From contig JASJBC010000014.1 of assembly GCA_030066715.1 (NCBI GenBank), forward strand, positions 1 to 36,750: a stretch of 36,750 bases of DNA, written 5' to 3'. Under the pieces are notes generated by a model that did no database searches, was not told the origin of the DNA, and saw only the letters and a program-made list of their open reading frames with translations. Each line of letters opens with the position of its first letter. Within the stretch, counting starts at the first letter, position 1. This DNA comes from Acidimicrobiia bacterium (GTDB taxonomy: Bacteria > Actinomycetota > Acidimicrobiia > Spongiisociales > UBA5794). This document shows, one piece after another, positions 1 through 6,758 of the stretch. The position numbers and the translations under genes were made by a program.

Positions 1-1126
1 GCACGAACGACTTTGCATTCCCGGCGTCGTCCTCAACTCGGACGAGACCTCGATACGCCGACCGACCCCCGCCTTTCGAGATCGACTTCGACGTGATCAA
101 CGACGACGTGTTCGGGGCGGCATGCACCATCTTCGCCCCGGCATCGAGATGCTGACCGGTGTTGGCAAAGGCGATGGAGAGCACCTCACCGTGCGCCCCT
201 TCCTCCATGAGCCAGACGGCCGGATACTTCATCGTCAGGTTGCTGCCGAGGTTGCCGTCGACCCACTCCATGGTGGCGTTCTTGTAGGCGGCGGCGCGCT
301 TCGTGACCAGATTGAACACGTTGTTCGACCAGTTCTGGATGGTCGTGTACCGGCAGCGCCCGCCTTCCTTGACGATGACCTCGACGACGGCCGAGTGCAG
401 CGAGTCGCTGCTGTAGGTCGGTGCCGAGCAGCCTTCGACATAGTGACAGAACGCACCTTCGTCGACGATGATCAACGTCCGCTCGAACTGGCCCATGTTC
501 TCGGCGTTGATCCGGAAGTAGGCCTGGAGAGGCTCCTCGACATGCACGCCGGGCGGCACGTAGACAAAGCTGCCTCCGGACCACACCGCCGAGTTGAGCG
601 CGGCAAACTTGTTGTCGTTGGGCGGGATGATCGTCCCGAAGTACTCCTTGACGAGATCGGGATACTCGCGGACCGCAGTGTCCATGTCGCAGAAGATCAC
701 GCCCAGCTTCTCGAGATCCTCCCGGTTGCGGTGGTAGACGACTTCGCTCTCGTACTGAGCGGTGACGCCGGCGAGGTACTTGCGCTCAGCTTCCGGGATC
801 CCGAGCTTCTCGTAGGTCTCCTTGATGGCATCGGGAACCATGTCCCAATCCTTGGCCTGACCTTCCGTCGGCTTGATGTAGTAGTAGATGTCATCAAAAT
901 CGATCGTGTCGAGCATCTCCGTGCCGCCCCAATTGGGCATTGGCTTGCGCACGAAGCGCTTGTACGCCTTCAGCCGGAAGTCGAGCATCCACTCGGGCTC
1001 ACTCTTCATCGATGACATCTGCCGGATGATGTCCTCGTTGAGACCCTTCTCAGGCTTGAAGACATAGTCCTCCTCGTCGGCCCAGCCGAGCTGGTAACCG
1101 CCAAGGTCAATGTCAACAGTCGTCAT
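1..1126 (-). CDS. sufB: Fe-S cluster assembly protein SufB (runs off the left edge of the window)
   Basis: Own minus-strand translation from ATG at 1126: [68 protein letters not shown]... and ...[64 protein letters not shown]..., characteristic of SufB. Absent from the ORF track, presumably because it has no stop inside the window. Confidence 0.95.
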
Positions 1127-1240
1127 TTCAGGATCCTTTGCTCGGGTTGAACAATTAGCACTATAGCGATAGGGGAATGGATTCCCCGCCGGTGGAAGCG
1201 GCAGGATTGTGCCCGATCGATCGCCAAAACGCCAACACAT

Positions 1241-1374
1241 CTCCCGTTCTTGCGGATGGTGCTTCGGTATCCCGAAGTCGTGTCCGCAAGAACGAGAAGA
1301 CGACCTCGGATGATGCCGCCGGAACGGGGTGTGGGAGTGGGGGGAAGACCGGGTTCCGCCCCGACGGATCATCC
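1241..1374. other. Composite structured intergenic element: 12-bp-stem hairpin with nested inner stem, followed by a nested stem enclosing a G-quadruplex motif
   Basis: CGTTCTTGCGGA (1245-1256) / TCCGCAAGAACG (1283-1294) perfect inverted repeat; inner CTTCGG (1262-1267) / CCGAAG (1272-1277). Then GGATGAT (1308-1314) / ATCATCC (1368-1374) and CGGAAC (1320-1325) / GTTCCG (1353-1358) around GGGG-TGT-GGG-AGT-GGGGGG-AAGACC-GGG (1326-1353). Confidence 0.6.
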
Positions 1375-1446
1375 TTGGTACTGGTATAACGTCACCAGTC
1401 GGAGAATTGATCCCGCAATTGTCACGCAGCCGACACGGAGCCAGCG

Positions 1447-1902
1447 ATGCCGGTCATCGTCATTGGAGCAGACACCAGATTGGGGCATGCGATCGTGCCC
1501 GCCCTCCGCCCCGCCTCGGGGGAGATCAGGCTCTTTGCATCAGACGAGGATGCTGTAGCCAGGTACCGGCCCTTCACCAAGGTCGCAGTCGGGGACATCT
1601 CCGACGGGAGTCACGTGGGCGGGGCAGCGATCGGTGCGTTCTGCGCCGTTGTCATTGCAGAGGCGGCCCACGACCAGCGCGAACGCTTCTTTGCCTCCAC
1701 GCCGGATGAGCTCTTCGCCCAGTGGGCGGATGGTCTGGAGGAAGCGGGGATCAGTCGGGTGATCCTCGTCGGCGCCCGATCGGAACTCCCGAATCCAGTG
1801 CGATTGGACAACATCGGGGCGGAGTACGTGCTGGTGGACACGAGCGACAAAGACCTCGCCGCAGTTGCCGACGAGGTGGCCGCAGCCGAGGACGCCGCCT
1901 AG
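1447..1902 (+). CDS. Small NAD(P)-binding Rossmann-like protein
   Basis: 151 aa ORF starting [20 protein letters not shown] (nucleotide-binding beta-alpha-beta look) with [27 protein letters not shown]. Confidence 0.6.
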
Positions 1903-5635: not shown

Positions 5636-5652
5636 GCCGGCGCTATGCCGGC
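5636..5652. terminator. Short hairpin overlapping the stop codon of the DUF222/HNH gene
   Basis: GCCGGC (5636-5641) gctat GCCGGC (5647-5652); no T-tract. Confidence 0.25.
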
Positions 5653-6758
5653 GGGTCAACGCCACTTGCGACGTTGCGGAGGAAACGGCGTTGCTGTGGC
5701 GGCGAGTCGGGATCGATCCTGAAACCGAGTCCGTGCACAACAACGTGATGATGAAACCAGCAGAGCGTGGTGAGGTTGTCTGCCTCGTGATCACCACCGT
5801 TGCTCCGCATTCGGATGTGATGAGCCTGGAGCCGGTAGCGAGAATGACACCCGGCGACCGTGCACCCGCCATCGCGGTGGGCGACGAAACGGCGCATCTC
5901 GGGCGGGATGGCCCGGGTCCGGTCCGAGGCAACAACGGGTTTGCCGTTTTCGAGACCGACGAGCTGCACGCGTCCCTCGCACAAAATGCGGTCCAGCACG
6001 GCCGGGCCGACCCGGGGACCAAACTGGATTTCGGCTCCCAACTCCCCATGGAACCGGGACTCGGCTGCGTCAAAGAACACGGTCACCAACGGCTCCGAAC
6101 GCCCCTGGTGGTTGCGGTTGCGGTCAATCGGTTCCCTGGAGTCCTGGCAGATCGAGACCAGAGCGTCGGCCCTGCGTTGCGCCCGAGTCTGAACGGGACC
6201 AGGGAGATCACCAAACTGGTCTGCCCGTTCCTCTACGGCGTCTCGAATGACTACGTACTCGAAGCCGGGCAGCTCACCGGCGATACGCCCTGAGGAGTTG
6301 TCGAGCGAGTCTTGGAAGCAGATGAATCTGTCGACGACCCGGTCCCGTTCGCTCGAGTGCGTAATCCTGCGCTGCCTGGATCGCATCCGATCAACGGCGG
6401 CGATGTTGAATCCAAACGAACGACGGATCGTTTCCTCATCCGCTTCAGACACAATGAGGCGTGAGGTGGCGATGATCCGCTCGAATGACAACCCTTCTGA
6501 AGAGGCAACCATTTCTGGCTGATGAGGCAATTGTCTTGCAGCGTCCACCAAGTCACGCGCAGTGTGCGCCGACACGTCCAACCTTCCCCTGGTCCACTCC
6601 TGCATTGATCGCGCCCCATCGACTCGATGCACTTGCCGCATGTCCAGCCGGTGGAGCACTTTGGCTTGGCGTAGCCGAAGCCGGGCAATCTCGTCCTCGA
6701 GGTCGAGCAGCTTCTGCTCCAGCTCGTCGATCGTGGTGTTGAGATCTGTGTCCAACAT
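5643..6758 (-). CDS. DUF222 / HNH endonuclease domain protein (13E12 repeat family-like)
   Basis: 371 aa; coiled N-term + DARQLPHQP, and C-terminal HNH core MRRFVAHRDGGCTVAGCHSRYRLQAHHIRMRSNGGDHEADNLTTLCWFHHHVVVHGLGFRI. Confidence 0.9.
   Translation of the reverse strand: MLDTDLNTTIDELEQKLLDLEDEIARLRLRQAKVLHRLDMRQVHRVDGARSMQEWTRGRLDVSAHTARDLVDAARQLPHQPEMVASSEGLSFERIIATSRLIVSEADEETIRRSFGFNIAAVDRMRSRQRRITHSSERDRVVDRFICFQDSLDNSSGRIAGELPGFEYVVIRDAVEERADQFGDLPGPVQTRAQRRADALVSICQDSREPIDRNRNHQGRSEPLVTVFFDAAESRFHGELGAEIQFGPRVGPAVLDRILCEGRVQLVGLENGKPVVASDRTRAIPPEMRRFVAHRDGGCTVAGCHSRYRLQAHHIRMRSNGGDHEADNLTTLCWFHHHVVVHGLGFRIDPDSPPQQRRFLRNVASGVDPPA

Follow-up and report, generated by a model that had tools for sequence, protein, structure and literature searches.

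A dispersed 46-bp palindromic repeat associated with a homing-type nuclease gene, next to a predicted structured RNA upstream of sufB in an Acidimicrobiia bacterium

The window analyzed here is a stretch of 36,750 nucleotides from an Acidimicrobiia bacterium, whose genome is a 3.14 Mb draft of about 76% completeness. The relatives used for comparison are draft genomes, including metagenome-assembled genomes of Acidimicrobiia and Acidimicrobiaceae. Gene calls place sufB and the gene of a Rossmann-type protein in divergent orientation, separated by a gap of 320 bp (1127-1446), which bears out the gap described in an earlier note on this DNA. The sufB orthologs share 85-97% identity in the congeners and one sister genus, and the Rossmann-type gene stays beside sufB within the genus. 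Near the sufB start lies a conserved CACTATAGCGATAG motif, which in other genera lies within a CACTATC-GATAGTG palindrome; a related palindrome of the CACTATCNNGATAGTG type occurs on the minus strand in relatives. On sequence grounds, this motif is likely the promoter or operator of sufB. Further along the window, a long gene on the minus strand (5643-6758) has a C-terminal part resembling an HNH endonuclease, and we take it, by eye, to be of the DUF222/13E12 type. HNH proteins of the DUF222/13E12 type are another multi-copy nuclease type of Actinobacteria.

Table 1. Features in and around the gap upstream of sufB (window positions).
Feature	Position	Strand	Remarks
sufB, 5' part within the window	2-1126	-	Gene call; preceded by the predicted RNA (1309-1414)
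Conserved CACTATAGCGATAG near the sufB start	1159-1172	.	Invariant in seven congeneric sequences
Dispersed palindromic repeat, one single copy, subfamily A	1245-1294	.	Further copies; absent at congeneric sufB
Hairpin of the predicted structured RNA	1309-1373	-	Compensatory changes; 3' arm 1309-1327, loop 1328-1355, 5' arm 1356-1373
Conserved C-rich loop CGGUCUUCCCCCCACUCCCAC	1331-1351	-	Nearly invariant across 20 genomes
ECF-sigma-type promoter-like motif	1388-1414	-	GGGATC 1409-1414, CGTT 1388-1391
Rossmann-type protein gene, divergent neighbor	1447-1902	+	Gene call

The gap harbors two hairpins that the earlier note had read as a single element. The parts it listed are all present in the sequence: a perfect 12-bp inverted repeat (1245-1256/1283-1294), an inner stem (1262-1267/1272-1277) with the loop TATC, a 7-bp repeat (1308-1314/1368-1374), an inner 6-bp repeat and the G-runs. 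The strong structure it reported was also found, as both strands of the region give better folds than their shuffles, with a z of -5.86 on the minus strand and -3.12 on the plus strand. Adjacency and strong folding of both structures would suit one composite regulatory element made of hairpins and a G-quadruplex. This is nevertheless very improbable. The second block is conserved in the sufB upstream regions of all six congeners, where the first hairpin has no counterpart (0/6); the block thus consists of two features and not of one unit. In addition, some 43 other places carry the first half alone, the second being single-copy, and the four G-runs are not conserved. The proposal of a small mobile palindromic element holds for 1245-1294, which has further copies and whose site at sufB lacks the repeat in relatives, whereas that of an ncRNA or long-leader regulator holds only for the separate second part, with its strong compensatory changes. 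Looking for covariation and for other copies left the finding standing, owing to other copies for the first half and to covariation for the second.

The conserved stem of the second hairpin comprises 12 bp (1316-1327/1356-1367) in the minus-strand reading, and takes the place of the 6-bp inner repeat proposed before as the pairing. Among 20 genomes, 97.5% of the stem cells pair and compensatory double changes affect 8 of the 12 stem pairs. None of 500 shuffles, which leave relatedness uncorrected, was as good; with slid partners, a control that corrects for relatedness, pairing falls to 38-54%. The block also has G-U pairs that pair only when the minus strand is read. A search model built from seven congeners matches 34 of 60 relatives, with one copy per genome and two places in G025. 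The next gene downstream on the same strand is sufB at 19 of the 20 RNA loci read; in G008, another gene directly follows the RNA and sufB lies about 2 kb on. A GGRA[AT]C-N16/17-CGTT motif, which we take to resemble ECF sigma promoters, precedes the RNA in nearly all of the 20 genomes, and the GGGATC/CGTT copy in the window would be the ECF promoter of the RNA. The conserved loop, CGGUCUUCCCC(C)ACUCCCAC, has the plus-strand G-runs as its complement, and in some genomes, such as G024 and G012, no more than two of its C-runs have a length of three or more. A G-quadruplex is not supported, since four G-runs of three or more vary among relatives and the conserved feature is the C-rich loop on the minus strand.

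The 6C RNA of Actinobacteria is a small hairpin RNA with a C-rich loop. The RNA described here shares these traits, in a comparison made via Rfam only, and differs in being a single hairpin at a fixed place before sufB. With E values up to 5, 13 genomes gave no match to any of the 4227 Rfam covariance models, that of 6C among them, and 6C RNA was rejected on this basis; nothing relevant was found in the window up to E = 10. Judged by its conservation among relatives, the minus-strand segment 1309-1414 is a predicted structured RNA, ancestral and undescribed, with a promoter-like motif. It would act either as a separate sRNA or as the leader of sufB, and need not be an independent sRNA. G-rich ribosome-binding sites are possible pairing partners of its C-rich loop.

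The first hairpin belongs to a family of dispersed repeats. The core of the window copy (1247-1292) is exactly 46 bp long and consists of two 23-bp half-sites with a central AT. All 33 copies read, including one variant of the second subfamily, have exactly this length, from TTCTTGCGGA to TCCGCAAGAA or equivalent. About 43 places in the genome match covariance model R1; together with two gene-flanking copies of subfamily B, the genome holds about 45 copies. Two subfamilies are present, A, the type found in the window, whose alignment is gapless across the core, and a few copies of B (TTCTTGCGTAACTGGCGGC...). Copies occur singly or as doublets, with a period of exactly 70 bp in 9 of 10 doublets and of 69 bp in one. 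The family is found in all six congeners and is patchy through the family and order; the inner sequence is genome-specific, while the length and the central AT are constant. A strict exact repeat pattern gave 0 matches in the named genome collection.

Covariation of the repeat pairing among the copies of the source genome is not above that of shuffles, and arm position 5 changes on either half independently. The conserved unit is thus the 23-bp half-site, used twice. A purely RNA-level role is not supported, given that covariation does not exceed shuffles. At the first inner position (alignment A1, columns 17 and 42), 25 of 32 copies show T facing G or C facing A, so that the repeat has polarity and carries a mismatch when folded. 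Speculatively, this T.G or C.A mismatch hints at a Vsr-type mismatch substrate. As reasoned from the sequence, attC-like integron sites were rejected, as the ends of the repeat do not match those of such sites and its copies are scattered.

Repeat blocks read in several genomes (63-65) lie in 28 convergent, 31 tandem and 3 divergent gaps, the window copy being one of the last three. Most blocks are situated just after genes, and 61 of 63 are intergenic; two fall within gene predictions, one of these being a flanked nuclease gene whose frame was called too long. One block has a neighboring gene on one side only. Such positions just after genes, nearly all in convergent and tandem gaps, and the strong hairpins that the RNA would form are what bidirectional terminators or mRNA-stabilizing hairpins would display, if rare duplication had spread them and a nuclease took no part. 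We consider this unlikely, as it would predict neither the fixed length of 46 bp, nor the genome-specific subfamilies, nor the two-sided bracketing of nuclease genes described below, and as pairing within the genome goes without covariation. A secondary use of the repeat as a terminator is possible.

At two loci of the source genome, repeats are found on both sides of homologous genes (G000:C185 and its paralog at C219), whose product matches Pfam AbiEi_4 and DUF559/REase_MTES_1575. Each paralog is bracketed by its own subfamily, and bracketing of the second by subfamily B had been predicted beforehand. Homologs of this nuclease occur in 42 of 60 relatives. Genomes with a close homolog (cut at about 235 bits) and genomes with model-detectable repeats number 23 each and have 19 in common, a count uncorrected for relatedness; G013 has two repeat-model matches but no close homolog. 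Searching the flanks for palindromes without a prior returned paired repeats around most nuclease genes, and the sequences of these repeats diverge along with the gene. With coordinates taken from HMM matches, a repeat common to both flanks was found for 57 of 86 homologs, as against 1% of 1212 sham intervals, and for 24 of the 27 closest homologs. For 29 of the 86, mostly distant, the test used did not find a shared flank. L115 was counted as unflanked although a downstream repeat is present, because its open frame runs through that repeat.

For three genomes missed by the repeat model (G030, G045 and G052), dispersed copies were predicted beforehand, and the gene-flanking repeats used as queries indeed recovered dispersed families, with about 11 sites in G030 and tens each in G045 and G052, many of them full doublets. 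G006 keeps many subfamily-A repeats despite holding only a fragment of the subfamily-A gene; repeats may outlive the nuclease gene. This fragment is located at L152 1583-1750 (G006 C66). Distant homologs in Blastococcus and Nocardioides are flanked too, by other palindromes. The AbiEi-DUF559 genes of Blastococcus (L220, L226, L238) lie between palindromes of about 64 bp with TGATCA at either end, which represent another repeat type in the same layout. Those of Nocardioides (L215, L221, L225, L236) have repeats of the GGGGATC/GCAGGAATC type on both flanks, with a hairpin inside and facing each other. At two further distant homologs (L150 2530-2637 and L158 901-1014), one-sided short tandem repeats of the GCGAACCCNGGGTT type replace the paired 46-bp palindromes.

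The N-terminal part of the bracketed protein resembles AbiEi antitoxins, and its C-terminal domain is of the EDxHD/Vsr-like homing-endonuclease kind. In an AlphaFold2 model of the nuclease (pLDDT 92.4), the catalytic domain resembles that of I-Bth0305I (3r3p) with a Foldseek probability of 1.00 and a TM of 0.74, whereas the N-terminal part matches the AbiEi fold of a wHTH plus a C-terminal domain (6y8q; E = 4e-6, TM 0.64 by target length). The sequence-profile matches agree with these fold matches, that to I-Bth0305I having an HMM E of 4.7e-5, and PADLOC AbiEi models match the protein as well. Residues E206, D239, E250, H257 and D266 are near-invariant and are candidate catalytic residues. AbiEi proteins regulate their own expression and recognize two inverted repeats of 23 bp (PMC7319586), and I-Bth0305I dimerizes on a target of nearly 60 bp (PMC3943268). 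The repeat described here, of 2 x 23 bp, is reminiscent of the paired 23-bp inverted repeats recognized by AbiEi, the antitoxin and autoregulator of type IV toxin-antitoxin systems, as well as of a long target suited to a dimer such as that of I-Bth0305I. However, the protein differs from AbiEi antitoxins by its fused nuclease domain and by the dispersal of its repeats through the genome. In the clustering of neighboring genes, an AbiEii (DUF1814) toxin partner was not noticed. It differs from EDxHD homing endonucleases by its location outside introns and inteins, by its AbiEi-like DNA-binding part, and by the palindromes that bracket its gene and are also present in tens of copies.

Since AbiEi autoregulators bind such 23-bp inverted repeats (PMC7319586), and the nuclease gene has one repeat immediately before it, the repeats could be operators of an AbiEi-like regulator with a regulon, co-evolving with the specificity of the protein. 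We regard this as quite unlikely. Most copies are downstream of genes, with only 3 blocks in divergent gaps, the C-terminal nuclease domain is conserved, and about 45 sites would need joint re-selection in each genome. Autoregulation through the upstream copy would also agree with a nuclease-cognate repeat.

Within the genus, the nuclease genes occupy syntenic places and are thus vertically inherited, as has been reported for RAYT genes (PMC8049555). Six repeat sites could be aligned between the source genome and G004. Four of them are occupied in both genomes, one by a doublet in each, and at all four each genome carries its own subfamily, which suggests in-place homogenization or repeated insertion at the same sites. 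The other two are without a repeat in G004. Only one clean empty site (L022) was available among these six orthologous sites, and in this single case a defined target duplication was not found. Repeats are also located a few bases after a pgsA-like phosphatidyltransferase gene in G000 (L028 2001-2116) and in G017 (L055 1437-1482), each of its own genome's subfamily, which hints at shared or re-used sites.

The system shares several traits with REP/REPIN-RAYT systems, namely many short, dispersed extragenic palindromes, found mostly after genes as singles and doublets, and founders that flank a vertically inherited gene (PMC2817692, PMC8049555, PMC3733652). The enzyme is unrelated, being an AbiEi-EDxHD nuclease and not a RAYT of the HUH/Y1, IS200/IS605-like type. 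In contrast to REP/REPIN sequences, the repeat is a 46-bp palindrome of two 23-bp half-sites with no evident GTAG/CGTC tag, and doublets are in direct and not in inverted order. The resemblance to REPs in layout and distribution, and an assembly only about 76% complete, would be in keeping with common REPs whose mobility depends on a Y1 (RAYT) transposase that went undetected in the missing part of the draft. We hold this to be extremely improbable: PF01797 (Y1/RAYT) was not found in the draft, a shared unpaired tetranucleotide tag (GTAG/CGTC) was not found in the aligned copies and their flanks, and the AbiEi-EDxHD nuclease is bracketed in many genomes, several of which are more than 90% complete. 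The repeat and its nuclease rather look like a counterpart of REP/RAYT in which an unrelated enzyme takes the part of the transposase. Cognate REP-like repeats and a homing-type nuclease are strongly associated, a link undescribed as far as we searched; no literature linking DUF559/AbiEi to repeats was found among the open-access journal papers covered.

On balance, the locus probably combines a nuclease-cognate dispersed repeat (1245-1294) with an independent, ancestral structured RNA (1309-1414). The genomes contain a repeat family of fixed length that flanks the nuclease genes, matches them by subfamily and varies in presence and absence between genomes. We infer that the nuclease binds, cuts and copies the repeat, and that it spreads it. 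Two nuclease molecules would bind the two 23-bp half-sites, as AbiEi does on paired 23-bp inverted repeats, and cutting of the repeat would be followed by repair from another copy. Over time, such cut-and-repair would spread repeats into intergenic 3' ends and convert existing copies to the current subfamily of the genome, while the nuclease gene, like RAYT genes, would remain in place between the two repeats of its own. Both spread and homogenization would be explained by a dimer that sits on the 46-bp repeat, with cutting and repair. In the source genome, a repeat would have landed just 3' of the RNA hairpin before sufB.

We give even chances to a broader view, according to which the AbiEi-EDxHD proteins across Actinomycetota would be a second, independently evolved class of repeat-associated enzymes. 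These homing-type nucleases would bind paired 23-bp half-sites and, through cut-and-repair, spread palindromic repeats and make them uniform across the genome; in bacteria this would be a molecular drive with no relation to transposition by RAYTs.

CGTC REPs come without a dedicated transposase, as pointed out by Di Nocera et al. (PMC3733652), so that enzymes other than RAYTs are an open question. DUF559 is still listed in Pfam as a domain of unknown function, and bracketing by cognate palindromes makes one DUF559 group testable as repeat-associated nucleases. The repeat system also lends itself to studying how dispersed sites change in concert in bacteria. If the proposed role of the nuclease is true, populations of REP-like repeats have at least two origins, involving enzymes that are unrelated. 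Finally, a predicted RNA that has a promoter-like motif of its own before sufB and is conserved through a bacterial family points to an undescribed layer of RNA-based control over iron-sulfur cluster assembly.
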